DNA from: a virus
IMG/VR virus record: IMGVR_UViG_3300023281_001248
Coordinates: 1 to 45,710 of that record
Length of the DNA: 45,710 nt
Strand: one strand, 5' to 3'
Shown here: piece by piece, positions 13,801-45,535 of the stretch
Numbering within the stretch: position 1 is the first letter of the stretch
Layout of the letters: each line of letters opens with the position of its first letter
Notes under the pieces: model-generated
The model's database searches: none
Told to the model about the DNA's origin: nothing
What the model saw: the letters and a program-made list of their open reading frames with translations, nothing else
Translations under genes and position numbers: made by a program

Positions 13801-15450
13801 AAGGTATTCAGTCACTGCTTCCTGCAAACCGATAAGGGCGCGAGCCTTAACTCCAGATACCTGCTTATCGAATAGCTTTATAAGTCCACGTAAGCCAACC
13901 GAGTTCAATACACCAGAGCCTGCCGTCATCATCAGGAACGCATTCTCAGCAGTCTCTCTAGCTATATTTTCTGGCACACCCTGCTCGATAAGTGTGTCTA
14001 ACGTCTCTCGATAGGTAGACGAGCCTTCGAGCGCGCCACCAGCCAGACCACCTGCGCCAAGACCGGCAACCGTTGCCGCTTTACCAATTCGAGCCAGCTT
14101 CGCCATCACATCAGGATCGGCTAGGTCGATCGCGCTGTTGCCGATCTTGACAAACCTACTGATGGTGCCATTCGCAGCAGCACCCTGCCCCAACACCTTC
14201 GGAGTAAGACCAGCTACTTGCTTTGCGGCAATGGCAACACGCTCGCCTTCAGCGGCAGAACCTACAGCACCAGCCACAGCACCAGCCGTCTTACCAAGTT
14301 TGTTTAGCATGACCTTACGTACTGCTGCACGCGTCAGTCCAACAGGTGTGATGGTTGCCAGTAGTGACGGCACGATCTGTCCTATCGTGAATGTCAGAAA
14401 GTCCAGATCCAGTAGCAGTTCCGGGTTTTCAAGTATGTTCTGGTCGGACCTGAATGTCTGGGATGCACGCTCCACGAACTTGCGCATTCTGGGCTGGAAG
14501 AATCCTTCGATGTTCTCGCCAAGAGCGGCAACGCTTTCAAGCCCTGTTTCACCACCGAGGTAACGCAGGATCGTGCCCGTGCTTTCGCCCAGCCCCAACC
14601 CACCAGCGGCGAGACCCCGGAACAGGTTCCTGATTGGTTCGAATCCCTCACCCTGCGGCACTTCAGTCTGTTGTTCCGCTCTTTCAGCTAGGGCAATCAG
14701 ATCAGGGCCAGTCGCAAATAACCCTCCACCCTCACCAGAGGCTACGCGTAGTGCGTTCCCTGCTGCTATGGACGGGTCCGCGTCAGGTTGGACCGACCGG
14801 AGCGCAAATTCGTTAGAGGCGCTCTGAGCGGCTCTGGCGGCAAGCGCAGTATCTTGGTTCAGCTTCGCCCTGGCCTGGGCCTGCTCTGGTGTGAATCGCT
14901 GGCCCGTCACCTCACCTATAGGCACCAACGGGAACTCTGATTTCGGTAGCGCGTCGGGCCTTGGCAGGTCAGCACCCGTTTTATCAATAGCTTCCGCGAC
15001 TGCACGCTGGGCCGGACCCACTACAGTCGGTGCGGTCCTGCCATTTGGTGGGGGCTTTAGAAGAGATGCCAAACGCTGACGTGCTGGTGGTTCTTCGTCA
15101 TTAAACACGGCACGGAACGCGTTCTGCTGTTGTTCTCGCTCCTTTGGCGTGCGGCTATCGAATTTAGCAACAGGTTCAGCAGCTGCCTCTGGCGTGGCAA
15201 CAGGTGCCTGCCCAGGTTCAACGCGAATGCCAGCAGCATCTTCTGATAATGCTTGGGCCTGCTCTGCGACAAGGCGACGACCGGCTTCCGGGGTAATCTT
15301 CCCAGTACCCAACCCTTCCCTGAGATTGTTGACGTTTCTGGCAAGGATGGGTAGCTTCTCGGCATCCTCCAGAATTGCTTCAGGATTGAGTGGATCTAAT
15401 GTCCTTCTAGGTGGTCGTCGCAGAGATCCCCGTGTTGGACCGAAAGCCAT
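4804..15450 (-). CDS. Giant large polyvalent protein (LPP), probable ejected virion protein
   Basis: At 3548 residues this is by far the longest gene. Regions seen: disordered N-terminus (1-330); hydrophobic Gly/Ala-rich helices (about 345-600); acidic linker; SAP-like motif (about 765-800, with GVKKTGNKAAIVTRI) and a second SAP-like stretch (about 1002-1030); ADP-ribosyltransferase-like region from about 1189 (LTHFTKQSE... to GYVGYYVDNVAAVF); GNAT-like motif QNQGIGQQL (about 1404-1412); an LPP-typical block near 1755 (WYTAVTARL...LLGATSP); zincin motif HEMFGH (His2422, Glu2423, His2427); LPD38-like C-terminal part (about 3010-3290, with EWDRDTYYHFWIQG and LPKPFESG); terminal coiled coil. Such proteins in other phages are packaged in the capsid and enter the host with DNA; that role is inferred. 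Enzyme activities are predicted from motifs only. The start lies 3 bases after the upstream gene. Confidence 0.88.
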   Translation of the reverse strand: MAFGPTRGSLRRPPRRTLDPLNPEAILEDAEKLPILARNVNNLREGLGTGKITPEAGRRLVAEQAQALSEDAAGIRVEPGQAPVATPEAAAEPVAKFDSRTPKEREQQQNAFRAVFNDEEPPARQRLASLLKPPPNGRTAPTVVGPAQRAVAEAIDKTGADLPRPDALPKSEFPLVPIGEVTGQRFTPEQAQARAKLNQDTALAARAAQSASNEFALRSVQPDADPSIAAGNALRVASGEGGGLFATGPDLIALAERAEQQTEVPQGEGFEPIRNLFRGLAAGGLGLGESTGTILRYLGGETGLESVAALGENIEGFFQPRMRKFVERASQTFRSDQNILENPELLLDLDFLTFTIGQIVPSLLATITPVGLTRAAVRKVMLNKLGKTAGAVAGAVGSAAEGERVAIAAKQVAGLTPKVLGQGAAANGTISRFVKIGNSAIDLADPDVMAKLARIGKAATVAGLGAGGLAGGALEGSSTYRETLDTLIEQGVPENIARETAENAFLMMTAGSGVLNSVGLRGLIKLFDKQVSGVKARALIGLQEAVTEYLEGPLEAGIQLGQETITVEQAIQKMKDETNVLPAAFITGFLMPGAGGAFGQAHDRTKPPAQEAADATQEDEPGELPPVDPGAGAAGQAVNVIPEEASGTAQAEAEEVDETTVQEPDEGEAATDTGKPSPAKDGKAKPTGEDTGPAATPARPDDEVVTEDDLVTEPEPGPEDEGDVEPEPTPEELAFDEETAEPTADDLLNARAALSTDEDGEFEITKQTVAQLKVMADEFGVKKTGNKAAIVTRITDAAAELVSGRDTQEAPSAQAIPETEDQVQTGRTVTESVGGESSQDIQQPVGRAERSKKADRKGDEQRTAKAKPKVKPKAAAKKPAAKTTEKKREAEVEEAFESYRNQKQWRIDLMTPEEQDALKVAIKTQKELPTEKTPGGLELPNVEDRKAADAALTKALSVAVDRKTLPAKKPVAKATKDEEAAARFVIEDLTSTDQQMVKAVTQHTRAEIDRAADMLGVDKKGTKRAVGLRIQKASRENENLRGPKNATIAEQGEPLDTRVQTALDTVASKELNDEVEFLTETQRESEGGETDLYTALQDAEQKAENDGDRKLLKAARQAQIELGVYAPVTDEQLANTQTTGKNKFAFQLGGVKYDFVGHPSAIEVVDEFFSAEASPAPSTREDGRVRLTHFTKQSEITEIDPQFHGTGIRGAEGKRKRSNPDTYQDRIYYGLNVGEEGGYKPEPGLRGQAALESSVDPAKLYDMRNDPDGLKDGMDRGVEFFNLYETAIKDAGYVGYYVDNVAAVFRTRPVEAVNESVSERIERISKEPEEDVPIDGDTFFSGDSDAQSFNIGESEKAIDIISRDEESGTRISYMGAFKRAFVNLPLEELENALQIKSASVKGSFQNQGIGQQLIEKMHMLALERGMTLVSDSVVSTEQIRAYMGLRRKGWEIVFADEQDVQKALDKHQETGVTEYVAMIDVPVVIGIRSPKQVDDELSLGTAQDVLFSAQGNRVKLSQIVDSPDTVVSAQKKGEVRDTNGGRIDIFIIHRELGNRDRYDNLIRHEDGRVLEQSTGGKYKSFHSARDFGKGAARKYAKNTPVDDAKSARFSADGKKRGATSERVQFTKEEKKQIERVVAKVPAGQEQATRDMIRSDRQKFAPSEGWERMVPTGVTLGTRGKAKGTVTSIKYKGIAYTFEKDPTTGKAYTTKKVNQKRKARRQKHLAREMVKRVREVEKAAKRGAKWAKEIMAQRAWYTAVTARLRTEFGGASDLIADLLGATSPKTPVAQNFTQTMDAARQLSEGKFDTEMLAFIEHLDAGGRPSKYKGPTVTKINGKKYGTNTISTMQAMARVWRVVRPGMAPKARNFTGNLIGISDAATIDVWAARFMERLAAIKRVPPKAEGAVGGNVGADGVRIGGAFGFAQDVFDIAAEELGMTPKDLQAVAWFMEKKEWNDNKWSTEEAAGGSFEQQLDLRDLSRLLSGISVQKKRKPTDKFQNKIATRIRRFFQADSDSVSFRSASTMGQYEGDVERAFDVEATVTPDFDVNKFVAEMAQIGKENKQTDVFVSRVLSPTANNLNARPGIEVYFKNESDIKSVQPILDSLVADGVDGFTMVVDPRASITRTRSGETFIGVRYQFVPEIKARYDTDFVADVRKRGMDVILGEETTRLTNAAVKLMSLGAVDYQIFQYDTVVFGKENYDEYTGSNRATNQTDGRVWFGQSIDRAFEAAVSRHQEGEGAAAPGGVRGSVQQTAAGAVDGGSDTTTQTTPARQSTAGQISAAADNNLAGDASEVAAPARPASAADGAVALLTAPTADDAVFSADDRLSTVTDPKDRGKKPKTPLNADRVRFHLLEIINRLSPLINIRIVQSHSDLPNSIQLRMKRDKIHTVRGVYMPSQNTLYIVADSAVSLAGAERTMLHEMFGHFAMSSMPKFANIKARLQKIIDSQEDQVVNRLVKSVKAKGHVSGDQFLDEVIAEMSETMTSRNAVMKEVIATVKEMVRSLGFSVELSNTDMMALIRASRRRIERRALAAAGLGIDRNSEKYEDFLKSDQLRNLRNAGTNLEVGIALEGLAKEFDAVMFSASSPMTPELDAEWEKKMNTPFREMSWPDRMRKSMQIFHDMSFAELTQGLIDSANATKTNEIAAYGSILDASVSASKAMSTIRNMNNVMGAVMRHGIPSLKEAFVTLADGTKVKGLNFTNPKDGQAFQEIWTPLQKIGGDSQLRNWEKWMVATRAGSLIAKDLQAGRLGSKRREKLIEQQLVDQTLQWARDQTAEDGTTYEEIFKEVQANWVKVNKANLDLAVQTGVIDAKERAIWESYDYVPFWREMSGLESGHPPGHNSRTDVSSAGLFRLTGKVDEDGSPTKLEGNVVDSMFMNTAYLLERSYRNEAHRRTVDAALKTGAYVLEPQPARPQRIPSTKAADLIKMMFHSGMINAATEEDAVAVFDTWSKAEQDKWLTFFNRVAPQGPNIVTLMVKGKPVYYRVTDRLLLKSIVGMQGKNIGMWMSAMRTSKKWLTIGVTTDPAFMLANWMRDTVQTFIVSKAPLHSLADPIKSLHEAYNDSPAMLALAYAGRGGGGFYDTNPEKIRDLLKDMEVPGHEIDGFMNTIISPRKIVQWWKRVGTASEFSNRVRVYNSLKLVWDRRIAELGQQGIKGQAAKQQAVSEGLASPEEAAYQAQDLLNFTRSGDFVAIQNLIQIVPFLNARIQGINKLWRGAKESPMSFAMKGGALAAASLSLAIANDDDDRYNALPEWDRDTYYHFWIQGEHWRLPKPFESGVLFSTIPERIWRAGKGIDGWDEFSRSMLHAALDTFAFNPIPQLAKPAIESYFNTNIFTSTPIIPAGMENMLPQRQYDWRTGEFARWVGDAMPDFMPDVMQSPKRIEHLMRGYFGALGVYTMSVANVMTDSILHGPERALGELGAMKLHELPVLKRFKQADVPHTTKYNRILWEQVRESDAIARTLKTYIEEGEGQRALGLAHNEAQILALRPTLRRVATEVSKVNKQINQVSLDRRLSPEKRTALRDKLLEKRNALTAQVEPLLEYL

Positions 15451-30446: not shown

Positions 30447-32786
30447 CTAATCCGCGAATGTTGCCGCTGCGCTGACGTAACTCTTTGAAGATGCGTCGTA
30501 ATCACAGCCGATATTGTGCGCGCCAGTTACTACCCTGTCGGCACGAATGATTGTTACTTGTTTCAAGTTGTCGACGGCACGATCCGCCCTGCGTATAGAT
30601 CCTACGCCCGTCGCTGCAGGCGGGAACGTGTCCATGTCGTCAGTCAGGCTGAACATGACATCGATTGCGGGTTGCGTCGTGTTGTTCAAGCTGATACTCG
30701 GATTCGTTGTCACTGCCTGCCCGACACTGTTGCCGTCATCTTCTTCAGCACCGGTCGCCGCCAAGTTAATTACCGCAAACGCCAGCGCACGGAATGGGGC
30801 CGCGCCAGACAGTGTAAGCACCACGTCTTTGGTCCCACTATCGGCGTCAGGAATATCGTACCGGTACAGGAACACTTCATGAAACTCAGATCCTTCCTGT
30901 ACAAAGTTGCCGCCGCCAGTATCGGTCATGGCGTTGCCATCGTAAGTGAATGACGACACCGTTCGGTTAGCCGCTGAATCCCAGTAAAAACCAGCAACAA
31001 CTATCTTGCGCCTGGTGCCACCGGGTAGCTTAACCCTCGCGGTAATCGTTGTGCCGCTGACATCGTTGCTGACCTGACCGTGCTTGCTGATGTCGAATCG
31101 CGTCGAATCGATTCCACCTGCCGTAGTGTCCTCCGTCATGCCGACCGTCACAGAAAGACCGGTGGATTCAATCAAGCCAGGATCGGATTTTGGCAAGTAT
31201 CTGGTATCGCCTGGACTAGACTTCCTGACCTCGATAGTGACGGCAAGATCACCGCCGTAGTTATAGGTTCCGTCCGTATAGACACCCGTTGCATCTGTGC
31301 GCCCCTGAGAAACTAAGCTGTTGTCACTGCTGTCTCGGATACTTACGATGACATCCTCAAGAGCCACTGCGTCGGCATCCTTAACGGTGACGTTAAGTGA
31401 CACCGTCTGGACGACCGTTGTCGTGGCACCAGCACCGTTACGCACGCTAGGACTGTCACCACCGACGACCGTGATTGTAATTGCGCCACCAGTATCATTA
31501 AAGACAGCTGCATCAGCTGCGCCAGAATTCGCAACCAAATTGGAGCCTGGTGTGCCACCGAACCCAGAGAACGTGACGCCAGTCCATGATCCAGTAGCAA
31601 GAGCCTCTATTGCATGACCTGCCCCGCTCTGCACGAACAGCGTATTATTCAGGTCAGTTGTCGATCCAAACGTAGGGTCTTGCAAGCAGGCGACGTTGGT
31701 AAGTGCGTTACATTTAATGATCGCGTTTTCAATGTTGCACGAGGCTTGAGTGAGCAGCATGCACTCAATTTCACCGTTGACATCACACACGCTAGTGAAT
31801 GCGACATCACGGAAGTTTCGCATTACCCCCGTGAAGACGTATGAACCAGACGTTCCGATCACTTCGTAATCAGGACGGGTGTCGTTGGCATCCGCTCCAT
31901 TGCGCGTTCCAGCACCAATCAGTAACGCACCGTCAGCTAAAATAGAACTGGCGTTACCGATGTCCATCGAGACACCAAACAGACCGCGACTGTGATACCC
32001 GTCAGGGAACGTGACAATCGACGTACTGTCGTCAAACTCAGTAGCGGTTCCAGACGCACCAACGGTGGCGATACCACGGAAGGTAACTGCGTCACCGATG
32101 CCGATAGCCGCGCCCCATCGTTTATCGATGTCGTTCTGATCCGCTTCTACGAAATCCGTGTACTTGGCCGCTGGATCGGCACCAGTGCCGTTTAATACCG
32201 TCAGCCCAGTGCCGTAGTCGATGGCATCAAAGGCGAGGTTTTCAGATTTTGAGTTACCGTTAATGAATACGGCGCGCATGCCATACCAAATAACCGCTGT
32301 CTGATCAAAGGTTCCACCGGAGTCAGCGACGTTAGCCCAGGTGTCAATCGTTGGATCAACGCAGGTAATCAGGTATCCACCCTGCGGTGGATACGTGTCG
32401 TAAACAGGCAGTGCCGCATCTGTACCCGCCAAGACATATTCATGGTAGTTGGATTGATCTGCCGAACCAATGCCAAGCTCAAGTCCAAACGCGACCTGCA
32501 GATCAAAGGCATCGGTAATATAGCCCTTGAAGTACAGCAGTCGGTTCGACGCCGCCGTGAAATCAACAGCAGAACCGATGTAATCAACGCCATCGCGTGC
32601 CGCGCCAGTAAGTTTAACGGCTGTACCGACGACACCCGTATTGGCAGCGGCACCAGTTGAAATCTGGTATGCGTTCGCGCCTTCAGATGCAGGTGCGCCA
32701 CCACCAGAACCGTAGTTACCCCAACCGGTATTAGCGTCAGAATCATTAAGCCTCGTACCATCAAATGTTACCGCGAGTACCGTCAT
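30447..32786 (-). CDS. Large multidomain virion appendage protein
   Basis: The 779-residue protein begins TVLAVTFDGTRLNDSD with a beta-rich domain. A central stretch (about 270-440) has short repeated strands like those of right-handed beta-helices (IENAIIKCNALTNVAC, LNNTLFVQSGAG). Around 465-560 is a carboxypeptidase-regulatory-like/Ig-like segment (VSLNVTVKDADAVALEDVIV to DATGVYTDG). The C-terminal 220 residues resemble a domain common in viral and environmental proteins (KIVVAGFYWDSAANRTVSSF and LTLSGAAPFRALAFAVINLA). No signal. It probably forms a fibre or spike. It starts as ATGA overlapping the upstream stop, with GAGAGGTG before it. Confidence 0.78.
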   Translation of the reverse strand: MTVLAVTFDGTRLNDSDANTGWGNYGSGGGAPASEGANAYQISTGAAANTGVVGTAVKLTGAARDGVDYIGSAVDFTAASNRLLYFKGYITDAFDLQVAFGLELGIGSADQSNYHEYVLAGTDAALPVYDTYPPQGGYLITCVDPTIDTWANVADSGGTFDQTAVIWYGMRAVFINGNSKSENLAFDAIDYGTGLTVLNGTGADPAAKYTDFVEADQNDIDKRWGAAIGIGDAVTFRGIATVGASGTATEFDDSTSIVTFPDGYHSRGLFGVSMDIGNASSILADGALLIGAGTRNGADANDTRPDYEVIGTSGSYVFTGVMRNFRDVAFTSVCDVNGEIECMLLTQASCNIENAIIKCNALTNVACLQDPTFGSTTDLNNTLFVQSGAGHAIEALATGSWTGVTFSGFGGTPGSNLVANSGAADAAVFNDTGGAITITVVGGDSPSVRNGAGATTTVVQTVSLNVTVKDADAVALEDVIVSIRDSSDNSLVSQGRTDATGVYTDGTYNYGGDLAVTIEVRKSSPGDTRYLPKSDPGLIESTGLSVTVGMTEDTTAGGIDSTRFDISKHGQVSNDVSGTTITARVKLPGGTRRKIVVAGFYWDSAANRTVSSFTYDGNAMTDTGGGNFVQEGSEFHEVFLYRYDIPDADSGTKDVVLTLSGAAPFRALAFAVINLAATGAEEDDGNSVGQAVTTNPSISLNNTTQPAIDVMFSLTDDMDTFPPAATGVGSIRRADRAVDNLKQVTIIRADRVVTGAHNIGCDYDASSKSYVSAAATFAD

Positions 32787-35386
32787 CGATCACCTCTCAC
32801 GTTAGGTTCTAGCACGATCCAACTCGCGGCATGAGCGGCAGCGGCCCATTGCGTCTGCTGCTCTTGCGCCCACCACAGAGCCGGACATTCGTCCGCGTAC
32901 CAGATGTCCGGTGGGCATGAAAGCCATACGGTTGGTAAACACGGTGCCTCCCAATTACTTCTTCTCTCTTGCGCAAACCAAGTGCCGCCAATTTCTTCGT
33001 TGACAGCCGTCCATGTTCCCCCAGGTTCTTCGGCAGATTGTGCCTCATGTGGTATCTCTGCCGCCAGCCATAAACTAGCACATCGCAATGCTTGCCATCC
33101 TGCGGTATTGCAATCCGCCAGCCACAATTCGCAATCTTCAGCGTCTCGCGTAACGAACAAAGCGAATAACGGATCAACCCACTCGACCGGAATCCTGGCT
33201 TCGACACCGGGATCGACGCGCCATTCGATTGGCATCGTTCCATCGGTTGGGTCAAGAATGCCTCTGGCTTCCCACGGAATTATTTGATTGAACTGCTTGA
33301 AGAAAATCTGCTGCCACTCAATAAGGATCTGGTGATCCGTTGCGACAAAACTTTCTTGCAGCCACTCGAACGGTATCGTGCTGTCGAAAAGCACGGGGCT
33401 GAACCACGCAATCGGGATCTGATGATCGCTTGCCAATGCCGGACTCAGCCATTCGACGGGAATAGAATTTTCGTCGCCTACATCTACCGTCCATTCGATC
33501 GGGACACCGAACGACTGCAGAGCGTCGAGATTCCACTCCACTGGTATGGACGCGTTCAGGGCAACGCCCTGCGTCCATTCGTAGGGAATGATGAAGTCAA
33601 CCGCACTGAACTCACCACTCCAAGCAACGGGAATTTGATGGTCAAGCTCTAACTGCAGGAACCATTCGACGGGAATGCCGTTATCTATTACGAGATCCGT
33701 TTTCCATTCGACCGGCATCTGCCTGTCAATTTCCAGGAAGACGGTGAGCGCCCACTCGTATGGAATGACGTGATCGGTCTCTAGTTCCGTCGTCCACTCA
33801 ATCGGAATGACTGCATCGGCATCAAGGAAGCCAGCCCAGTTGATTGGAATGGCGTGCGTCGATACCAACACGCTTTCAAGCAACCACTCGACAGGGATCT
33901 GGTGATCCGTTTCTAACTCCGTCGTCCATTCGACAGGCGTCTGTCGGTCTGTTTCGAGATCCAGTTTCCAGTCGAACAGTATTTCGTAATCTGATCCTGG
34001 ATCTGAAAACGGTCCTCGCCAAGCGAACGGTATAACGAAGTCAGGTGGTGGCTGGACCTCTCCTTCCCATTCAAAAATTGGCTGGTGATCTGAAGTAACT
34101 CCACCTCGCCATTCGATTGGAATCTGAGAGTCATGCGGGGTGATCGTGCCTCGCCATTCGATAGGAACTTCTCGATCAACATCAAGTTCGAGAGTCCACC
34201 CAACCGGTATTCCAGAGTCTGCACTTAACGGTCCTGACCAAATAATTGGCATCGACCCATCAGCAGCAATTCCTTGAAGCCACGAGACTGGTATTTCATT
34301 ATCAGCAGCAATTCCTTGCCGCCACTCAATTGGAGCCAGGTGATCACCTGGCGTCGTTACGTTGATCCACTCGACAGGGATCTGATTATCGAGAAGCAGA
34401 TCGGTCTTCCATTCAACAGGTATTGCATGGTCTACCTGCAAATCCTCACTGGCATATTCAATGGGTATCTGCTTATCAATTGCGAGACCCTGCTGCCACT
34501 CGACAGGAATGACGTGATCACTATCGACAGGCGTCTCAGCGGAGATGGCGTAGAGAACTGCGGCATAAGCCGCGGTCAGTCGAACGGGTGTTGTATCGTC
34601 TTGATGCAGTACCGCCGCATAAGCCGCGCTCAGTCGAACTGGCGTTCCATCGTCTTGATGCAGTACCGCGGCATAAGCAGCAGTCAGTCGTACATTGGTA
34701 TTGGTCGAGGCATCAGCGAGAGCCGTATCACCGGCTGTACCGACCGCAACGTAATCGACTTCAAACTGATCCTGATTGCCACAGCCAACACCAACCCAAC
34801 CATCGACATCGAGGTCGGAATCGGTTTCATCAATCAGCCAATCAGTTGGTTCTTCGTCACCATCACTCCATACACGGAACTGAAGTGCGGTTCCATTCTT
34901 ACGAAATCGACACCAGTACCACTTGTCGATTACCGGGTGCTGATCGGCAGCGGATCGAATGTCGTTGTCGGGCCAAACGACAACAGTACCAATATCGGTG
35001 GATGTACCAGCATCGTATCGTTTTAGTTGCCACCGTTCGCTTGAGCCAACGAGTTCATAGCCAACGTAGTAGCCATCTTCACTACCGGCGCTACCGGACC
35101 CATTAACCCAAAAACTGATACCAAGATCGGCGTCGGCGTCATTGATTCGCCAGCGAACAAGTATCTCCGAATCTTCACGATTCGTGTCACTGTCAACAGC
35201 ATCAAAAGAGAAAAGACGTTCCGCGTTAGCCGTGTGGACAAATCGAAACGCTCGATCGTCTTCGGCCTCACCGTCAGAGGGGTTTTCAACGGTGTCCGTC
35301 TGGTTGCTGGTTGTGAAACGCGCAGTAAAATTTGTCGGGGCGGACCCCGTAGTCATGCCCGCAAAGTCTTCGGAATATGTCGTCAT
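32783..35386 (-). CDS. Virion protein with LamG-like head, AAYAAVL repeats, about 31 IPVEW repeats and a Trp-rich tail
   Basis: The 867-residue protein has four parts. Residues 1-225 are a LamG-like domain (LGISFWVNGSG, WQLKRYDAG, WCRFRKNGTALQFRVW). Next are three near-identical 18-residue units, VRLTAAYAAVLHQDDGTP. Residues about 285-737 hold about 31 tandem units of about 14 residues with consensus D-H-x-I-P-V-E-W-x-x-x-L-x-x. The last 110 residues have ten Trp placed every 7-12 residues in W-x-A-x-E contexts. No signal or membrane segment. The regular Pro-Val-Glu-Trp spacing suggests an extended beta structure. A tail fibre or surface appendage is the best guess. No ribosome site precedes the ATG at 35386, so translation is probably coupled to the upstream gene, which stops 8 nt before. 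Confidence 0.82.
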   Translation of the reverse strand: MTTYSEDFAGMTTGSAPTNFTARFTTSNQTDTVENPSDGEAEDDRAFRFVHTANAERLFSFDAVDSDTNREDSEILVRWRINDADADLGISFWVNGSGSAGSEDGYYVGYELVGSSERWQLKRYDAGTSTDIGTVVVWPDNDIRSAADQHPVIDKWYWCRFRKNGTALQFRVWSDGDEEPTDWLIDETDSDLDVDGWVGVGCGNQDQFEVDYVAVGTAGDTALADASTNTNVRLTAAYAAVLHQDDGTPVRLSAAYAAVLHQDDTTPVRLTAAYAAVLYAISAETPVDSDHVIPVEWQQGLAIDKQIPIEYASEDLQVDHAIPVEWKTDLLLDNQIPVEWINVTTPGDHLAPIEWRQGIAADNEIPVSWLQGIAADGSMPIIWSGPLSADSGIPVGWTLELDVDREVPIEWRGTITPHDSQIPIEWRGGVTSDHQPIFEWEGEVQPPPDFVIPFAWRGPFSDPGSDYEILFDWKLDLETDRQTPVEWTTELETDHQIPVEWLLESVLVSTHAIPINWAGFLDADAVIPIEWTTELETDHVIPYEWALTVFLEIDRQMPVEWKTDLVIDNGIPVEWFLQLELDHQIPVAWSGEFSAVDFIIPYEWTQGVALNASIPVEWNLDALQSFGVPIEWTVDVGDENSIPVEWLSPALASDHQIPIAWFSPVLFDSTIPFEWLQESFVATDHQILIEWQQIFFKQFNQIIPWEARGILDPTDGTMPIEWRVDPGVEARIPVEWVDPLFALFVTRDAEDCELWLADCNTAGWQALRCASLWLAAEIPHEAQSAEEPGGTWTAVNEEIGGTWFAQERRSNWEAPCLPTVWLSCPPDIWYADECPALWWAQEQQTQWAAAAHAASWIVLEPNVRGDR
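32810..33150 (-). repeat. Trp-rich degenerate repeats
   Basis: The C-terminal part of the 867-residue protein repeats short units such as ELWLADC, SLWLAAE, GTWTAVNE, GTWFAQER, DIWYADE and LWWAQEQ. The units share W at a fixed place and Ala/Glu after it, at about 7-12 residue spacing. Confidence 0.65.
33177..34532 (-). repeat. About 31 tandem IPVEW units
   Basis: Counting each [IVM]P[VIFY]xW core gives about 31 units of 13-17 residues between these positions. Some neighbouring units are very alike (LETDHQIPVEW, LETDRQTPVEW, LETDHVIPYEW), others have drifted. The pattern is selected at protein level, with recent local duplications. Confidence 0.9.
34553..34693 (-). repeat. 54-bp direct repeat, three copies (last one partial)
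   Basis: Copies of a 54-bp unit code the 18-residue VRLTAAYAAVLHQDD-x-TP repeats. DNA identity is high, with mostly third-position changes, which points to recent in-frame duplication. It is not CRISPR: the copies abut without spacers and lie inside a reading frame. Confidence 0.88.
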
Positions 35387-35394
35387 GCGCTAGA

Positions 35395-36411
35395 TCACGT
35401 TTGCAGATCCAGGCCAAACTGTGCTGTATTTACAGTCGACTCAATCCAGTCCGAACCACCGTTTGGATTGTTTTCATAAATATTATTCACGAACTGCCAA
35501 TCAACACCAAGAGTAAGATTGCCGCTCTCGACCTCTGTCGTTCCATTCCTGGCTATCGTCCTGACTTCACGAACACCAGCATCTTCTTTTCGCACTAACA
35601 TTTTTGCATCGACACCGAACACGGTGCCAACACTTCCCGCTAAAGCCGCAAAATTATATAACTCACGATCTGTCGCAGTAGCTGACCAGTTGTAGGTGGT
35701 GTCATCGTCAGGCGTCAAGCCATCATCTACGGCCTCATAGTTATTGGTTCCACCACCAACGCGAGTAAAGTCATTCTCGTTACCATCGGCATCAGGAAAG
35801 ACGGTTTCGACGCGACAGTCACCAAGCGGCCCGGTATTGTCAGTTCCGGCATCATCAAGGATATAAAGATCGTCAATCTTCATATCGGTAGTGGTGGTAG
35901 AAACAAACTCGATATTATTTACGTCTGTCGTGGTGCCGTTCTTAGTATCGACGCCGGTATCTGACATTATCGAACTGCCATCAACAAACACATCATAGGT
36001 GCCGGTACTATCGTGAATCGTGACATCAACTTCAATGTAATACCACTGACCAGAATTGAGGCCGAGGCCACTGGTTATTTCTAGTGCGGTAGTGCCGCGA
36101 TTGATCTCAAGTTCACCGGCAGCAGTAAGATCCAGACCAATATGATCGGTGGCATCATTTCGTATGTTGAAAAACCGGGTATTGATAAGGCCTGATGTGA
36201 ACTGCACGGCAAAACCAACCGTAACGACATCGGTTGCAGGGAAGGCTTTTACAATTGGTAGGCCACTAGATAAGCACTGAATACACTGGTCACTACCATG
36301 CCGACCAGCAACAGGGTCCCACGCCGCAATAGATATAGAACTCCAGCCACCACGAGTTAGATCAGTGTCGACATCGTATTGCTCAAATCCATCAATTACG
36401 AGCAGGGCCAT
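35395..36411 (-). CDS. LamG-like virion protein, paralogue of the 22.1-23.3 kb gene
   Basis: The 338-residue protein MALLVIDGFEQYD has a LamG-like N-terminal region (about 1-190; GQWYYIEVDVTIHDSTG, YDVFVDGSSI, IDDLYILDDAG). A second region starts ETVFPDADGNENDFTRVGGG and matches that of the product of 22089-23294. No signal. The start at 36411 is chosen over a longer frame to 36534, because the extra residues are Arg/Cys-rich and overlap the upstream gene; the ribosome site (AGGG) is weak. Confidence 0.78.
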   Translation of the reverse strand: MALLVIDGFEQYDVDTDLTRGGWSSISIAAWDPVAGRHGSDQCIQCLSSGLPIVKAFPATDVVTVGFAVQFTSGLINTRFFNIRNDATDHIGLDLTAAGELEINRGTTALEITSGLGLNSGQWYYIEVDVTIHDSTGTYDVFVDGSSIMSDTGVDTKNGTTTDVNNIEFVSTTTTDMKIDDLYILDDAGTDNTGPLGDCRVETVFPDADGNENDFTRVGGGTNNYEAVDDGLTPDDDTTYNWSATATDRELYNFAALAGSVGTVFGVDAKMLVRKEDAGVREVRTIARNGTTEVESGNLTLGVDWQFVNNIYENNPNGGSDWIESTVNTAQFGLDLQT

Positions 36412-36419
36412 GACAAGCC

Positions 36420-36713
36420 CTACAGTTTCAGATAGGTCATCTCGACGCCAGCAGCTGGATCGATCGCGCCTGCGGTCGGGTTGACAAAACGCACCGTCAG
36501 CTGACCAGGAGCGGTTCCCCAGGCAGTCGCGCAATAACCCAGGCCGTCATCGAGACCGGAAGCACCAAGATCGAATGCAACAAGGTATAACTCGCCTACC
36601 TCGACTCCAACCAGGCCAGTGATGTCGGCATCAACTGTAGTAATGGTAGCGATCGACGGCAGATCGACTAACTTTTGCCGGACATCATCCGCATTGATTT
36701 TGGTAACACTCAT
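36420..36713 (-). CDS. Small virion-associated protein
   Basis: This 97-residue protein is Ala/Gly/Val-rich and beta-like (VGVEVGELYLVAFDLG, GQLTVRFVNPTAGAI). No signal. TAGGAGA lies 6 nt before the ATG. It lies between the adaptor and a LamG-like gene. A small tail or decoration protein is likely; no family recognised. Confidence 0.7.
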   Translation of the reverse strand: MSVTKINADDVRQKLVDLPSIATITTVDADITGLVGVEVGELYLVAFDLGASGLDDGLGYCATAWGTAPGQLTVRFVNPTAGAIDPAAGVEMTYLKL

Positions 36714-36722
36714 GTCAATCTC

Positions 36723-37490
36723 CTAGAAGAAGTGCGCCTTTACACGACGCGGATAATTTCGTTCCTGGCTGCGAACCCGCAGCAGACGTGCTGACGGTCT
36801 CTCACCGACCATTGCAGTAAACGTGTCCAGGAAGTCTTGCGCAAGTTTTTTGTCCTCAGTTTCAGAATCACGTTTCTTGTACGCCAGATGCTTCATGTAT
36901 TCCAGCAGGCACAGGTGATGCTCTTGCGCAATCTCTGGACCATCCTGATGTCGCGAAGGCCAAAGCATGTCAGCCGCGGCATACCTGTCGACCGTCATGT
37001 GGATGGTTCCAGCGAGATCCGGCACACGATACAGCTGCAACTGGTTGGTGTCCGTATCCTCGACGTAGTAGATGACCGTGCCTTCAACGGGACTGGTTTC
37101 TTTGTCCCAGTCCGTTACTTCGAGATCCATTTGCTGTGTGGTGCGCTTGAGCAGAATAAACTCGTCGCCGTTCGAATCTACGAACTTCATGCGCCGAATT
37201 GACAGAATCTTTGGTGACAACGCGTACACACCAGTCGACGCCAAGACGGGTATTTGAGTGATAGCAGCAGTCGTGTCTTGATCAAGGATTGGCTGGCGAA
37301 AACAGAACTCGGTCTGAGCCTGATTCGCGTACCGGCAGATCTCCTGGTTAGACCATAGGAGACCGGTATCTTTATTCTTCCAGTTTACGTCTGTGACGGT
37401 ATCCCCAGGTAAATCGTCAACATCCTGCCGGAAGAGTGTTGCCAGTTCCTCTAGCGTCAGAGGTGGCTTAATGTCCTGGGCACTCGCCAT
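36723..37490 (-). CDS. Head-tail adaptor-like protein
   Basis: The 255-residue protein has a helical N-terminus (LTLEELATLFRQDVDDLP), a stretch LWSNQEICRYANQAQTEFCFR like the first helices of connector proteins, a beta segment (VYALSPKILSIRRMKFVDSNG) and C-terminal helices (EHHLCLLEYMKHLAYKKRDSE) ending basic. This is the plan of ring-forming adaptors bound under the portal. Location after the capsid genes and before the tail genes agrees. The ribosome site is weak. Confidence 0.7.
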   Translation of the reverse strand: MASAQDIKPPLTLEELATLFRQDVDDLPGDTVTDVNWKNKDTGLLWSNQEICRYANQAQTEFCFRQPILDQDTTAAITQIPVLASTGVYALSPKILSIRRMKFVDSNGDEFILLKRTTQQMDLEVTDWDKETSPVEGTVIYYVEDTDTNQLQLYRVPDLAGTIHMTVDRYAAADMLWPSRHQDGPEIAQEHHLCLLEYMKHLAYKKRDSETEDKKLAQDFLDTFTAMVGERPSARLLRVRSQERNYPRRVKAHFF

Positions 37491-38582: not shown

Positions 38583-39701
38583 CTAGCCTGGATCAGCTGA
38601 GTACGTGTCCAGAGCGATGACACCGAAGTCCTTCGCAGTACCTTCGATGGTGAAACGGGTTTTCTTCAGTCCGAAGATTGAAGACGTGCTGATAATCAGC
38701 TGGTTCCCGTTGTCACGAGTTTCCTCGTGCCAGTTGAAACGCAAGCCCGTACCCGGTGACCCGAACGCGACCACAGCAGCCTGGGCACCAAGGAACAGTG
38801 CGCGTGCAGCAGGTTGATCCGAACCAGCACCGGCATCCGTGAAACGAATTACACCCTTGTTAGAGTGGAGAACTACCGAGTTATGCATGCCCAAACCGCC
38901 CTTAAATATCGGCGAGGACCTGCCTTCAGCAGTTGCTGCTGACTTCTGGATTTCGAGCCAGTTACTTGCACCGGTTGCGGTACGGAGATCGAACGCCTGC
39001 CAGGGTGACATGAGCAACACGTAGTGTTCCTCACCGTCAATCATGACCGGCTGGATCTGCGGCGTGCCTTGCGTGCCGCCACCCATCATCACGGCTTTCG
39101 TGATGGCACGATCAATTTCAACAGTCGTTATCTGGTCGTTGTTCGAGATCGTTGCGTACGACGTGGCGTCACCACCGTACATCACATGCTCGGCGTCCGG
39201 CGTAGCAATCGCGTTGTTACTGAAACCGGTATAACTCGTCGGGAAGATGTACTCGGTATTCGCGCCACGCGAACCACTGAGATAAATGAAGAAAAGTTCG
39301 TCGAAAATGCGACCCCACCACTCAGCCTGTCTGGAGCGCGCAACACGACGAAGGTCGTGAATAGTTCTTTTGCGCGTCATCCGTCCACCGCTGTTCGTGC
39401 CTCCGCGCATTTGATCGATAAAAACTGAGTCCGTATAGAACTTCAAATCTTCCTCAGTTCCTTCCTGAACATCATCGCCTTCGATCGGCTGTTGACGGAG
39501 TTGCATAGAGAGATCAAAGGTGATTTGTTCACCGGCATCTGACTCTAATTGGGGAAGCATTTGAATCGGCATCCCTGATTCTGGACCGACTCCCATGAAC
39601 TTCTTATTGAAATACGATACACGGGCTGTATCGACCGCCAGGAATGCGGAAAACCGCTTGACGGCTTTGGCGTCGTTAAGACCGATAATGGTTTGCGCCA
39701 T
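38583..39701 (-). CDS. Major capsid protein, N4-gp56 family
   Basis: The 372-residue protein fits the N4-gp56 major capsid family. It starts AQTIIGLNDAKAVKRFSA, has a phage capsid E-loop-like segment with GEQITFDLSMQL and a conserved middle (GRMTRKRTIHDLRRVARSRQ, then ELFFIYLSG), and ends with the usual strand set (LGAQAAVVAFG, RFTIEGTAKDFGVIALDT). It assembles the head shell on the scaffold. The leader holds an AGGA hairpin about 33 nt upstream and a separate ribosome site, TTGGAGG. It lies after the scaffold and the CsrA-like gene. Confidence 0.93.
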   Translation of the reverse strand: MAQTIIGLNDAKAVKRFSAFLAVDTARVSYFNKKFMGVGPESGMPIQMLPQLESDAGEQITFDLSMQLRQQPIEGDDVQEGTEEDLKFYTDSVFIDQMRGGTNSGGRMTRKRTIHDLRRVARSRQAEWWGRIFDELFFIYLSGSRGANTEYIFPTSYTGFSNNAIATPDAEHVMYGGDATSYATISNNDQITTVEIDRAITKAVMMGGGTQGTPQIQPVMIDGEEHYVLLMSPWQAFDLRTATGASNWLEIQKSAATAEGRSSPIFKGGLGMHNSVVLHSNKGVIRFTDAGAGSDQPAARALFLGAQAAVVAFGSPGTGLRFNWHEETRDNGNQLIISTSSIFGLKKTRFTIEGTAKDFGVIALDTYSADPG

Positions 39702-41054: not shown

Positions 41055-43289
41055 TTATACCTGCCCACCATCTGGTGGACGTTCTGGACTAAACGGCACC
41101 ACAGACCCACTTAAATTCGGATCTATAACGCCGCTCTCTTCTTTGAAACTGGCAAAAAGTTCGTCGACTGCTGCGGCAAGCTGCGGGTTAGCGGCAAGCA
41201 TTCCTGCAATCTCCGCGGCTTTTGCCATTGCATTAGATTCCGCGACGGCAGCGTCTGATGTGGTCTTCGCGGCTCTGGTTTCTTTTGTTGCGATCTCCGC
41301 TTCGGCGTCACGTTTCTCACGATCGGCGTCTTCGGCTTTTTGATCGTCACGCGCCTTGCGTTCAGCATCGGCATTCGGCGAATCGGGATCAATCTGTCCG
41401 TTCAACTCACGGATGCGGCGAACCATTTCATCGCGGTTCGGATGATCACTGAGATCAATAGCCATGTCGAGCAAAGCAAGCTGAACGTCGGGTTCCATCT
41501 GACCCAGCATATTCATCATTGACTCAAACATTGCGAGCCTGACGGTCTCATTAAATGATTGGGTATCGACAATGAAGTCGGATTTCGTCCTGGTAATATC
41601 GTTTTCGATTTGAAGGTTTCCGTCATCATCCTGACCCGGCATGTTGACGTTCTGAAAATCTTCCTGACCACGATCGCCGGTAATACGAAATATCTTTGGC
41701 TCGGTGTAATACTGCTCGATCAGCGACAGCTTCTTCTCACCGTGAAGCTGAATCGCAAATCGCAAGTTATCAAAAAGGTCTGCAGTGACGACGCTGCCCT
41801 GGGTCTGCCGCAGATTGATTGCCCGACCGGAGCTTGCATTGGTTACCTCGCCGCGGTTCTCCTCCGTCACTCCAGACGTAGACTCCAGGAACTGAATGTC
41901 TTGGATCATTAGCGCGACATGTTCTTTGGCAAGAGCGGTTTCGTTGCTGATGTCAAAATCAGTACCACGTATTTTCTTGATGATGCCGTCTGGTCTGGCT
42001 ACCTGTTCTTCAGCCTCATCCCAGTCTTCGACTGCATCCTCATCAGCAACAACGCGATTCGTCGATAAGATCCACAGTGCTTTGGATCTGCGCTTATTCA
42101 GATCTTCCTGCGGATCTCGCATGTTGCGAATGACGCCATACGGCTGTCCGTCCCGGTCGCGCTTGAATGCCCAGACAGGCGTGAACGCAAATCGATCGTG
42201 CCTGTATGGTGACTCCACGTCCTGAAGCATGCCTTTGTTAGAGAAGATCGCTACACGCACCTTCATTTTCAATGCGTCGTAAACACTGGCATGTCCGTCA
42301 TCGAGCAAGCCCTGAACGGAAGCCGAACGCGGACCCTTGACCTCGTCACCATTCATTCGCATAAGCTGGTTGCGAAATATTGGATTCATGAGAGGACTGA
42401 CCCTGGTACGCAGCATCTGTACGTTTGCTGGAACTTTGTACCAACACTCCACAAGGCGCACTCGCTTGCGACGAATACCAATATGGAAGCTGTCGTTGAA
42501 CATGGCGCGACCAGACTGGACCGTAGTAGATCCTGGTGTGTACGCGTGGTAGAGACCGCTGTAACCCATGTCATCATCTTCAGAAAATGAGTACAGCTGA
42601 TGAGAGACGCTAGACTGCCTGATGACTTCCTTACGATCGGGGAACATCATCATCGCAACATCTTCGTCAACCCACTTGGCACGAAACAGGAACCTGGAAT
42701 CAGAGTTATCTGGTTCCTTTGCGAGCGGGTCATTCCACATGTTCCGCCAGGATTCCCACCTGTCGAACAGCGGCTCATCAGTAGGATCGGATCTGATTCC
42801 ACATTCAAGCCAACCAATGCCTACTTTAACGGCATCAGCGAACGCCATGGATCTGGCGAACACGGAATGGTTTACGTCATCGGTGTATTTCAGAAGTTTT
42901 GTTTTTGTCTGTGCTGGCTTGTTATCTTCCTTCTCTCTTCCATGAACCTTGAAGTCGACACGAGTGCGTCGTTCCGTACCAAGTATCCATCGAATGTGTT
43001 GCGCGATCGCGTTGAAAACCAGAGGTGCCTGCCCCCGCTCTCTCAACACCTGGGCATCCTCGTCTCTCCATTGGATACCATCATGGAAGTCCGCATCGAT
43101 AGCCTGTTCAAACCGGTTGTCTGCAGAAGAGGTTCTGGCTTCATTCCACCACTCTTTGAGTATCCTCTCTCTTTCCAGGCCTTCTGGGGAATCCAGGCGA
43201 TGACGTGTTTCAGAAACCGGCTGTTGTTCGTTAGAACGTAGCTCGAATGGCACATGCTCTTTTACGACACCGACGTTCTCTATTCCCAT
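41055..43289 (-). CDS. Portal protein, P22-like
   Basis: The 744-residue protein has the features of the P22-type portal family. The N-terminal region is DGIQWRDEDAQVLRERGQ, then PLVFNAIAQHIRWILGTERR; the middle has DAVKVGIGWLECGIRSDPTD and WNDPLAKEPDNSDSRF; a stem/crown part with GVTEENRGEVTNASSGRAIN is followed by a long helical, charged tail. It forms the dodecameric channel for DNA packaging and ejection and anchors the tail. Length is close to P22 gp1 (725). The ATG at 43289 is one base past the upstream stop with GAGGAGA before it; the longer frame to 43316 overlaps the upstream gene. Confidence 0.9.
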   Translation of the reverse strand: MGIENVGVVKEHVPFELRSNEQQPVSETRHRLDSPEGLERERILKEWWNEARTSSADNRFEQAIDADFHDGIQWRDEDAQVLRERGQAPLVFNAIAQHIRWILGTERRTRVDFKVHGREKEDNKPAQTKTKLLKYTDDVNHSVFARSMAFADAVKVGIGWLECGIRSDPTDEPLFDRWESWRNMWNDPLAKEPDNSDSRFLFRAKWVDEDVAMMMFPDRKEVIRQSSVSHQLYSFSEDDDMGYSGLYHAYTPGSTTVQSGRAMFNDSFHIGIRRKRVRLVECWYKVPANVQMLRTRVSPLMNPIFRNQLMRMNGDEVKGPRSASVQGLLDDGHASVYDALKMKVRVAIFSNKGMLQDVESPYRHDRFAFTPVWAFKRDRDGQPYGVIRNMRDPQEDLNKRRSKALWILSTNRVVADEDAVEDWDEAEEQVARPDGIIKKIRGTDFDISNETALAKEHVALMIQDIQFLESTSGVTEENRGEVTNASSGRAINLRQTQGSVVTADLFDNLRFAIQLHGEKKLSLIEQYYTEPKIFRITGDRGQEDFQNVNMPGQDDDGNLQIENDITRTKSDFIVDTQSFNETVRLAMFESMMNMLGQMEPDVQLALLDMAIDLSDHPNRDEMVRRIRELNGQIDPDSPNADAERKARDDQKAEDADREKRDAEAEIATKETRAAKTTSDAAVAESNAMAKAAEIAGMLAANPQLAAAVDELFASFKEESGVIDPNLSGSVVPFSPERPPDGGQV

Positions 43290-43290
43290 T

Positions 43291-43776
43291 TCAGAGATCT
43301 CCTCGCACCAACTCAAGTGGTGTTTCCACGCGTTCCATGCCGTCAGTACTATTCAATGCAAGCGGTTCTGCCTCCACATCGATGTCAAACTTCTGATCAC
43401 CGACCTGCATCGTTCCAACGACACGGCTTGCCCGGTCTTCCTCGACCTTCATCGGCTTCATCTTAACGAGGTCTTCGAGACAGTCCATGATTGCTTCAGC
43501 GATTCTAAAGCGCGTGTCGACATTATCGCCAAGACCAAGCATCTTCTCGATCTGGTCGCTGGCATGGACCATGTATTGCGAATGCCCGGAATGCGGACTC
43601 TCAACATTGTCGACGTATTTCCACGCTGATTCTAGCGTGATGACATAAGCACGTTTTCGCACCGAAAGGAATCGATGCGCTCGAATGACTAGGGCAGGCT
43701 CTTCATCGACGTACTGAAACAGTATGTCAAAATCACCGAACTGCCTTTTCCTCACTATCGTGGGATGGACTTTCAC
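43291..43776 (-). CDS. Hypothetical protein between large terminase and portal
   Basis: This 161-residue protein has beta-type starts (VKVHPTIVRKRQFGDFDILF, ALVIRAHRFL) and a helical centre (DTRFRIAEAIMDCLEDLVKM). No signal or family recognised. GTG at 43776 lies 2 bases after the upstream stop, with GAGGAGGA about 18 nt before; a TTG at 43848 would lengthen it by 24 residues but overlaps the upstream gene and lacks a ribosome site. Possible packaging or portal-assembly helper by position. Confidence 0.72.
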   Translation of the reverse strand: MKVHPTIVRKRQFGDFDILFQYVDEEPALVIRAHRFLSVRKRAYVITLESAWKYVDNVESPHSGHSQYMVHASDQIEKMLGLGDNVDTRFRIAEAIMDCLEDLVKMKPMKVEEDRASRVVGTMQVGDQKFDIDVEAEPLALNSTDGMERVETPLELVRGDL

Positions 43777-43778
43777 GA

Positions 43779-44030
43779 TTAGGTCATCCGTTGGTCCTCC
43801 TCGTTGGCTGGTTTGTGGTCTGATTCGTTTATTATTGGTTTGCCGCAATTGCGGCAGCTGCCCGAATCTGGCAATCGTATGATGCCATGGCTTTTATCAT
43901 TGTCAAAACCTTCTTCACCAATATTGGCTTGGCGGTCCTTCCAATCAATATGTCTGCGATACGGCACTTGCGCGCAAGGTTTACCCTTACGGTAGTAATT
44001 TGAACGATTCCCAAACTGACCTGTACTCAC
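43779..44030 (-). CDS. Small hypothetical protein with a CxxC pair
   Basis: The 83-residue product is basic at the start (GNRSNYYRKGKPC), has one CRNCG pair near residue 62 and a polar tail. A single CxxC cannot by itself make a usual zinc finger; a lone Cys at about 19 may help. GTG at 44030 overlaps the terminase stop as GTGA, which suggests coupled translation and fixes the start; the frame extends further into the terminase gene without a better one. Not recognised. Confidence 0.6.
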   Translation of the reverse strand: MSTGQFGNRSNYYRKGKPCAQVPYRRHIDWKDRQANIGEEGFDNDKSHGIIRLPDSGSCRNCGKPIINESDHKPANEEDQRMT

Positions 44031-45535
44031 ACCGTTCGCCAGTTTCGCTGCTTCTTTTTTCTCCCCTTGGTTTGCTGTGGAGCCTTGTATCCAACGGCAA
44101 AACACTCCACAGCCTTCGCTCCGTGCGATGCCCAGTCGTGCAAAGGTCTGGACTTAAAGCTTCCCAACTTCTCATCCCATTCTTTCCGATAATGATCGAG
44201 TGCCTTGATTGTTTCTGGGCAATTTCTCTGGTCCATCCAGACCGTAGGCAATATAGATCTGACGGCCTCGATGCCGTCCGCCTCTTCCTCAATGCGCGGA
44301 ACAACACGTATAGGACGAAGACCAAGCTTGATCAGAGACTCGCGCCTGCTGATGCCTGTTGCCATCTCCCTGACTTCGACATCATGCGGAAAAAAGTGCT
44401 GGCCGTAAGTGTACGGTTTTTGCTGCAATACCTTGACGTAGTGACTCAGCGGCTCGCCGTGATTGACATATTCGTCTATGAAGCGATGCTCCATTCCGTA
44501 CCTCTGATGAAATACGATATGCGTGTCATCACTCATGCCGAGATCAAAAAAGGTGTTTACGGGAATCCTTGGATCATACGGCACCCTGGTGATGTGCTTT
44601 TGCTGGCGCAAGAACATCATCTGCTGCTTGTAATACGCGCCTTCGATGCTGGCACGGAATGCCTCGTCTGGTGTGGACGGGTACTCACGAAGCATAAACT
44701 CGCCTTGTTCGGCCTTCTTCTTCACGTACCAAAGCTTCTGACCAACAGTTAGCTTGTGCTGGATCTGGGTTTCGATGTCTTCAAAATATTCCTGGTCGTC
44801 GCGGGTGACAACAACACGGTCCTGCATCTCTTCTGGCAGGCTGTACTGACTTTCCTTCCACCAAGGGAAAAAATGAAACTTCCAGTCGAGCGTCGTCAGT
44901 GGAATACCCATTGCCGAGTTATTCCTGGCCTGGTCGCAGATGTCGAAGAAGTGCCCGAAGCTACCTTCAGCGGTTGACTCAATGGTAACGGACTGTCCTG
45001 CCTGGACCGTGTTCAGCGCACCAGTTCTGACCTCCGCAGCTTTCTCCGGGTACTTGGCACACAACTTGCCATACTCAGATATGTGCAGATAGTTCAACGT
45101 GCCGGAACGCATCGACGTGCCGACGCGGATACTGGAGTCATTTGCAAAAAGGTATTCGTTGGTTGTGTCCTGCCTGGGATGCAGGAACGCCCGGATCTGA
45201 TCAGGCAGGTGGTTGTACGGGTACTTTACCTTGGTCTCGAAGATTACCTTGGCATCGTCTCGCGTATGAGCGATTATTCCGCAGCGCGTATTTGCATAGA
45301 ACGCCGCATTATCCAGGAGGAGAATGTCTATGAACGTCGTCATCCCCAGCTGGCGAGCTTTCAGGATCACGTTCATGTACCAGAAGTTTTCCAGGAGTTC
45401 CATCTGCGCCCAGTTGGGCCGAAAGAGGACCTCGTTCCCCTCCTTGTCCTGAATGTAATAGAGGTTGTTCAGACGCCACAGCTGGTCCGAGAAGTGATCC
45501 GCTACTGTGGTCAATTGTGTTGTTGAGTCTGCCAA
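44027..45535 (-). CDS. Terminase large subunit
   Basis: The 502-residue protein is the DNA-packaging motor. The N-terminal ATPase has an adenine-binding Q motif (FRPNWAQ, Gln44), a Walker A-like KARQLGMTT (59-67), Walker B with catalytic Glu (LNYLHISE, Glu154) and a SAT-like coupling stretch (IESTAEGSFG). The C-terminal RNase H-like nuclease has acidic motifs FFDLGMSDD, PHDVEVRE and a final HDWASHGAKAV. It cuts concatemers and drives DNA into the head through the portal. It starts at TTG 45535, chosen because GAGGAG lies 9 nt before it and the frame has no better start. It overlaps the small subunit gene by 227 bases. Confidence 0.95.
   Translation of the reverse strand: MADSTTQLTTVADHFSDQLWRLNNLYYIQDKEGNEVLFRPNWAQMELLENFWYMNVILKARQLGMTTFIDILLLDNAAFYANTRCGIIAHTRDDAKVIFETKVKYPYNHLPDQIRAFLHPRQDTTNEYLFANDSSIRVGTSMRSGTLNYLHISEYGKLCAKYPEKAAEVRTGALNTVQAGQSVTIESTAEGSFGHFFDICDQARNNSAMGIPLTTLDWKFHFFPWWKESQYSLPEEMQDRVVVTRDDQEYFEDIETQIQHKLTVGQKLWYVKKKAEQGEFMLREYPSTPDEAFRASIEGAYYKQQMMFLRQQKHITRVPYDPRIPVNTFFDLGMSDDTHIVFHQRYGMEHRFIDEYVNHGEPLSHYVKVLQQKPYTYGQHFFPHDVEVREMATGISRRESLIKLGLRPIRVVPRIEEEADGIEAVRSILPTVWMDQRNCPETIKALDHYRKEWDEKLGSFKSRPLHDWASHGAKAVECFAVGYKAPQQTKGRKKKQRNWRTV

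Follow-up and report, generated by a model that had tools for sequence, protein, structure and literature searches.

Architecture of the array-bearing protein

What kind of repeat is the long run of tryptophan-bearing units encoded by a single gene of an uncultivated phage, how old is it, and what might it do? The window analysed here, the whole of a 45.7-kb virus record (45,710 nucleotides), has its genes read right to left on the minus strand. The features relevant to these questions are the following.

44027-45535, minus strand: terminase
41055-43316, minus strand: portal
38583-39701, minus strand: major head protein
36723-37490, minus strand: structural protein
35395-36534, minus strand: 379-aa protein matching phrog_2448, upstream of the array gene
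32783-35386, minus strand: array-bearing ORF, 867 aa
34721-35386 (aa 1-222), minus strand: N-terminal domain, a ConA-like lectin or carbohydrate-binding-module jelly roll as predicted with AlphaFold and Foldseek
34538-34696 (aa ~231-283), minus strand: three near-identical 18-aa units VR[LI][TS]AAYAAVLHQDDTTP, just upstream of the 31-unit array
33179-34519 (aa 290-736, D290-W736), minus strand: 31-unit array, D-x-x-h-P-h-E-W-x-x-x-h plus a variable loop
32786-33139 (aa 750-867), minus strand: C-terminal Trp-rich region with a second, shorter unit, ...W-x-A......W-x-A
30447-32786, minus strand: 779-aa protein of no known family, downstream of the array gene

A first-pass annotation had placed about 31 tandem D-x-x-IPVEW units in one protein, at 33177-34532. 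Listing every core gave exactly 31 units; the array is indeed located there, but the true units have the slightly narrower limits given above. The unit consensus in the 867-aa ORF is D-x-x-[IVM]-P-[VI]-E-W, and position +4 after the Trp is usually hydrophobic. The array has a motif-chain score of 290; shuffling the protein 2,000 times never gave more than 34, and the second-highest ORF of the window scores 15. The Pro and Trp, described as fixed, are so nearly throughout but not fully. Trp is found in 29 of the 31 units (replaced by Tyr in unit 2 and by Ala in unit 29), Pro occupies position -3 from Trp in 28 (the exceptions being PIFEW, ILFDW, and ILIEW), and Asp occupies position -7 in 25. 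Ten proteins of the family yielded 280 units, of which 248 have Trp, 233 Pro, and 181 Asp.

The period of about 14 residues is not strict, contrary to what had been claimed: the 30 spacings are of 14 (18 times), 15 (six), 16 (five), and 17 residues (once). When the spacing exceeds 14, Asp still stands seven residues before the next Trp in 73% of cases, and at +7 from the previous Trp in only 5%, versus 72% otherwise. Insertions must lie between the fixed blocks because Asp holds its distance to the next Trp, and the unit is therefore a fixed block, D-x-x-h-P-h-E-W, and then a loop that varies in length. The array is strongly acidic (80 D+E versus 15 K+R in 447 residues) and 37% of its residues are I, L, V, W, or F. 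Its hydrophobic moment is highest at 180 degrees (0.505, and 0.236 at 100 degrees), the alternation typical of a beta pattern.

The regions flanking the array are of different kinds. In the AlphaFold model of the full protein (computed with seven sequences), the N-terminal domain forms a jelly roll at aa 70-217, with pLDDT mostly between 53 and 83. Its Foldseek matches in the PDB include VIP36 (best E of 4.8e-5, probability 1.00), CBM66 (TM 0.64, normalised by target length), galectin, and the carbohydrate-binding module of the evolved Dit of phage J-1. We assign the ConA-like lectin/glucanase jelly-roll fold to this predicted domain with moderate confidence and regard sugar binding as putative. 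Tandem Repeats Finder identified a 54-bp array (87% matches) at 34563-34690, encoding 18-residue VRLTAAYAAVLHQDDTTP units that differ from D-x-x-IPVEW; this is the only part of the protein with tandem repeats at the DNA level. The minor tail protein of Brevundimonas phage Delta has a C-terminus with similar units, of the RVSTLSVEVLR type. The C-terminal region has one Trp per 8-14 residues and is conserved in four relatives (L001, L002, L003, and L009); two others (L024 and L037) have related short Trp/Arg tails.

Genomic context and distribution of the family

The stop codon of the array ORF overlaps the start of the downstream ORF in an operon-like manner, and beyond this 779-aa gene there are further structural genes, including a match to 'head closure Hc3'. 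The neighbourhood recurs in relatives: L003 has a phrog_2448 gene upstream, L001 and L002 have similar genes there, and L002 and L003 also encode a homologue of the 779-aa protein directly downstream. The 867-aa protein had been called a virion protein; from gene position and tail-annotated relatives, we infer that it is part of the virion, most likely as a tail or appendage protein. Elsewhere in the window (4804-15450), an ORF of 3548 aa has C-terminal ~600 residues with matches to PHROG proteins that are very large and whose function is unknown.

The close relatives in IMG/VR are L001, L002, L003, L009, L023, L031, L035, and L036; two of them, L003 and L023, have a globular domain within or ahead of the array. 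More distant arrays are found behind other leader domains in viral contigs (L024, L006, L010, L037, L069, and L074). Searching 2.9 million contigs with DNA patterns of two units recovered no more than about a dozen of this kind. A scan of bacterial genome contigs for homologues returned solely out-of-frame or non-coding repeats, and we discarded on these grounds the 21-bp repeats of Williamsia and a Parabacteroides contig. At several loci of the Williamsia genomes (L015, L020, and L021), 7-codon repeats can be read as IPVEWAE/TPVEWAL; they seem to be intergenic and are unrelated. A search of 194 genomes from the phylum of a cyanobacterial (Moorena) genome gave only unrelated repeats, and the 42-bp repeats of Microcystis phage Ma-LMM01 were rejected as a chance translation of non-coding DNA.

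The units are old and maintained by selection

The neighbouring units had been reported to be near-identical, a sign that the array was still expanding and contracting. For the window array, the near-identity is wrong and continuing expansion is not supported by our data. DNA identity averages 44.5% between adjacent units and 45.5% between non-adjacent ones, and the best adjacent pair reaches 67%. Tandem Repeats Finder detected no DNA repeat across the 31 units, in which Pro is encoded by each of its four codons and Glu by both of its own. Recent expansion was rejected, since 28 of the 31 units have their best match in the unit of the same number in L001, whose protein is 73% identical and whose order of spacings is that of the window save for two one-residue shifts. 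Between orthologous units, Trp is conserved in 97% of cases and Pro in 94%, while synonymous sites have diverged. In summary, the array is old and has been kept by selection at the protein level.

The number of units, which it had been proposed to count in related phages, does vary between relatives: 31 in L001, 27 in L002, ~38 in L003, and ~35-39 in L009. In the distantly related L010, two units (90 bp) have been added by a recent expansion. In the arrays of the window, L001, L002, L003, L023, and L031—which are related and hence not independent—units four to five apart are more alike than the shuffled order predicts and neighbours are not, which suggests either that blocks of 4-5 units were once copied or that the structure has a superperiod. 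Spacings above 14 seldom adjoin each other in these arrays.

Structure prediction of the repeats

In the full-length AlphaFold model, the repeats have a pLDDT of ~26 and do not fold on themselves. We modelled nine units separately, as a single chain, using an alignment of 46 register-checked units; this set replaced a MAFFT alignment that had staggered overlapping, unit-shifted segments to 375 columns. The mean pLDDT was 60 (41-60 across five models) and the pTM 0.41. Modelling of 6-10 units had been suggested as a check, and it returned a short V-E-W strand in every one of the nine units, at this low confidence. Bridges occur near -5 and +4 in most units, in a model whose repeat-shifted alignment favours in-register stacking.

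Foldseek searches of the nine-unit model against the PDB and BFVD gave nothing significant (best E of 2). The best VIA matches were mostly beta-helices and solenoids, with Z of 4-5.8, a range that may reflect only a common arrangement. The model bears a weak structural likeness to narrow beta-solenoids, i.e., the beta-helices of TBCC/CAP, the luminal domain of SV2, and pentapeptide repeats, which have no sequence match to the array and Foldseek E values of 2 or worse. The comparison with TBCC gave a VIA Z of 5.8, at 4.0 Å over 105 residues, for a model of low confidence. The earlier proposal of a new type of stacked beta fibre thus agrees with the alternating pattern and, weakly, with the nine-unit model, but finds no significant structural counterpart. 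The strand pattern and the block-and-loop anatomy can be read directly from the array; its fold is weakly predicted.

Similar arrays in other phage tail proteins

The unit was said to belong to no named repeat family. Searches of Pfam, NCBIfam, and PDB sequences agree, as neither the repeat nor, in the last, the nine-unit profile found a match, but PHROGs do not. There the array aligns with the N-terminal repeats of phrog_6079, 'tail protein', at positions 66-191 of the 605 of the profile, with an E of 2.4e-10 that must be read with caution because chance repeats of 14-residue period in one cyanobacterial genome reach 3e-7. The arrays of L003, L009, L023, and L024 match this family too. The alignment of the window protein is confined to positions 28-191, whereas the full members, gp21 of Stenotrophomonas phage S1 (aligned over 2-604) and the 'baseplate protein' of Shewanella phage 1/44 (28-604), have a further domain (positions ~210-604) absent from the window protein. 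They resemble the window array in having N-terminal units of ~14 residues that end in h-x-h-x-W; these are less regular and have few Pro. We found neither the IPVEW motif nor a published description of the unit in the phage literature searched. Judged by sequence matches, the unit lies outside the families of Pfam, NCBIfam, and the PDB but already within a PHROG tail family and well-known phage proteins.

Among the latter are the gp15 tail terminators (sheath stabilizers) of Vibrio phages KVP40, QD01, nt-1, ValKK3, D480, and K566, whose C-terminal extension consists of 14-residue x-x-x-L-x-I-D-W units, also describable as h-x-h-[DE]-W; we found no description of it. As in the window, the units are tandem (~8-15), of 14 residues, and in the same register, here following the T4 gp15 domain. 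In contrast, they lack the Pro at -3 and carry basic residues after the Trp. KVP40 gp15 matches PF16724, the T4 gp15-like tail terminator domain, at 5.9e-76, and the window protein has no match to it. The KVP40 gene lies at L058:490-1842, with relatives in L049, L059, L060, L063, L064, and L065, and the number of Trp units differs between phages. Two of these extensions, those of KVP40 and D480, have matches to phrog_6079 as well. The profile of the window family scores 35 bits against QD01, 26 against ValKK3, 25 against KVP40, 24 against K566, 22 against D480, and 17 against nt-1. However, the reversed nt-1 control scores 31 bits, between the best and the second-best of the forward scores, and period and composition therefore account for much of the latter. 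Homology with the KVP40-type units is not established, because reversed controls score nearly as high.

Other tail proteins have arrays too. The tail tip protein of Aeromonas phage BUCT552 (L026:3867-8294) ends in ~17 tandem 14-residue APYNLRSTVQAELL units, and eight further records of Aeromonas phages contain related arrays. The first match in BUCT552 was antisense to the tail gene and was rejected; a separate 14-residue array is encoded in the sense frame. These PYNLR units share with those of the window the length, the h-P-h-x-h register, and the presence in a tail protein, but have Leu instead of Trp and no profile match (E of 0.55). A tail tubular protein A (L027:5010-7271, MW202473.1) has at least ~10 units of ~18 residues (e.g., LSVTQNGLQLTRRVVNLTK) before its tubular domain. 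The pattern common to the arrays of the window, phrog_6079, KVP40-type gp15, and the Aeromonas tail tips is h-x-h-x-W/L at a 14-residue period, which may reflect descent or convergence.

A proposed stacked beta shaft and its alternatives

We favour, at roughly even odds (a probability of about 0.5) over the three alternatives considered below, a reading in which the array is a shaft of stacked beta strands, with Trp in its core, linking the lectin-like N-terminal domain to the second Trp-rich repeat. Each unit would contribute one short strand (h-P-h-E-W, with a second hydrophobic contact at +4) and then a loop of variable length that opens the next Asp-x-x turn. Stacked on one another, successive strands would form either a narrow beta-solenoid or a face of a multi-chain beta-prism, with I/V, W, and L in the interior and Pro and the acidic residues on the surface. 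The product would be a stiff, strongly acidic shaft setting the distance between the lectin-like domain and the C-terminal Trp-rich end. The stacking, the rigidity, the spacer role, and the place in the virion are inferred. We counted for this reading the alternating pattern, the block-and-loop anatomy, the nine-unit model, the lectin-like fold of the N-terminus, the age and protein-level conservation of the array, the recurrence of such arrays in a tail terminator, a siphophage tail protein (phrog_6079), and various proteins with other leader domains, and the location of the gene after those for terminase, portal, major capsid, and structural proteins.

The array could instead be a mostly extended chain of docking motifs, whose h-P-h-E-W blocks join as a strand to, or are gripped by, a repeated partner such as tail or head subunits. 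The fixed Trp-bearing blocks with variable linkers, the lack of self-folding in the full-length model, and the presence of such an array on KVP40 gp15, a tail-top ring protein, fit this explanation. The nearest published idea is that of tape-measure repeats with fixed Trp/Phe, which reportedly act as anchors for small auxiliary proteins (PMC3271669); like the window array, they are tandem, place Trp at fixed spacing in a tail protein, and vary in copy number. Yet their period is 11 (or 11-11-18) and their motif different, whereas the window array has spacings of 14-17 and a beta rather than a helical moment. Its content in I/L/V/W/F is also high for an extended chain, and the partner is hypothetical. 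We consider docking unlikely, though more probable than the two readings that follow.

The first-pass annotation had also put forward a Trp-lined surface binding glycans, which here would be a ladder contacting the host surface along its length. One Trp per unit and the junction with a lectin-like domain speak for it. But Trp shares the alternation of the buried, core hydrophobic residues, some units have Tyr, Phe, or Ala in its place, and KVP40 gp15, a tail terminator located at the tail top and away from the host, carries a similar array. We regard this explanation as less likely than the shaft and in itself quite improbable. A disordered acidic spacer, with the motif as a mere relic of repeat copying, would match the very low pLDDT of the full-length model and the excess of acidic residues, but is distinctly unlikely given the conservation of Trp and Pro between orthologous units with diverged synonymous sites, neighbours no more alike than distant units, and the high hydrophobic content.

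The stacked shaft allows a bolder proposition, which we hold as possible but rather doubtful: that this so far undescribed 14-residue strand-plus-loop beta repeat, with Trp residues forming a ladder in its interior, is a mobile module, joined in unrelated phages to tail terminators, to tail-tip proteins, or to appendage proteins that stand alone, and that it folds as a new narrow stacked-beta fibre. Phages that otherwise share little repeatedly carry short arrays of Trp strands with a single period, be it on the tail terminator, on a tail-tip protein, or on a separate appendage protein. The unit has no description in Pfam, NCBIfam, or any solved structure checked, and yet it is recurrent in phage tails. 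If it forms a stacked shaft, it would be a modular fibre of great simplicity, its length dictated by the number of units. If instead it docks on tail subunits, it would be a second kind of molecular ruler besides the tape measure.
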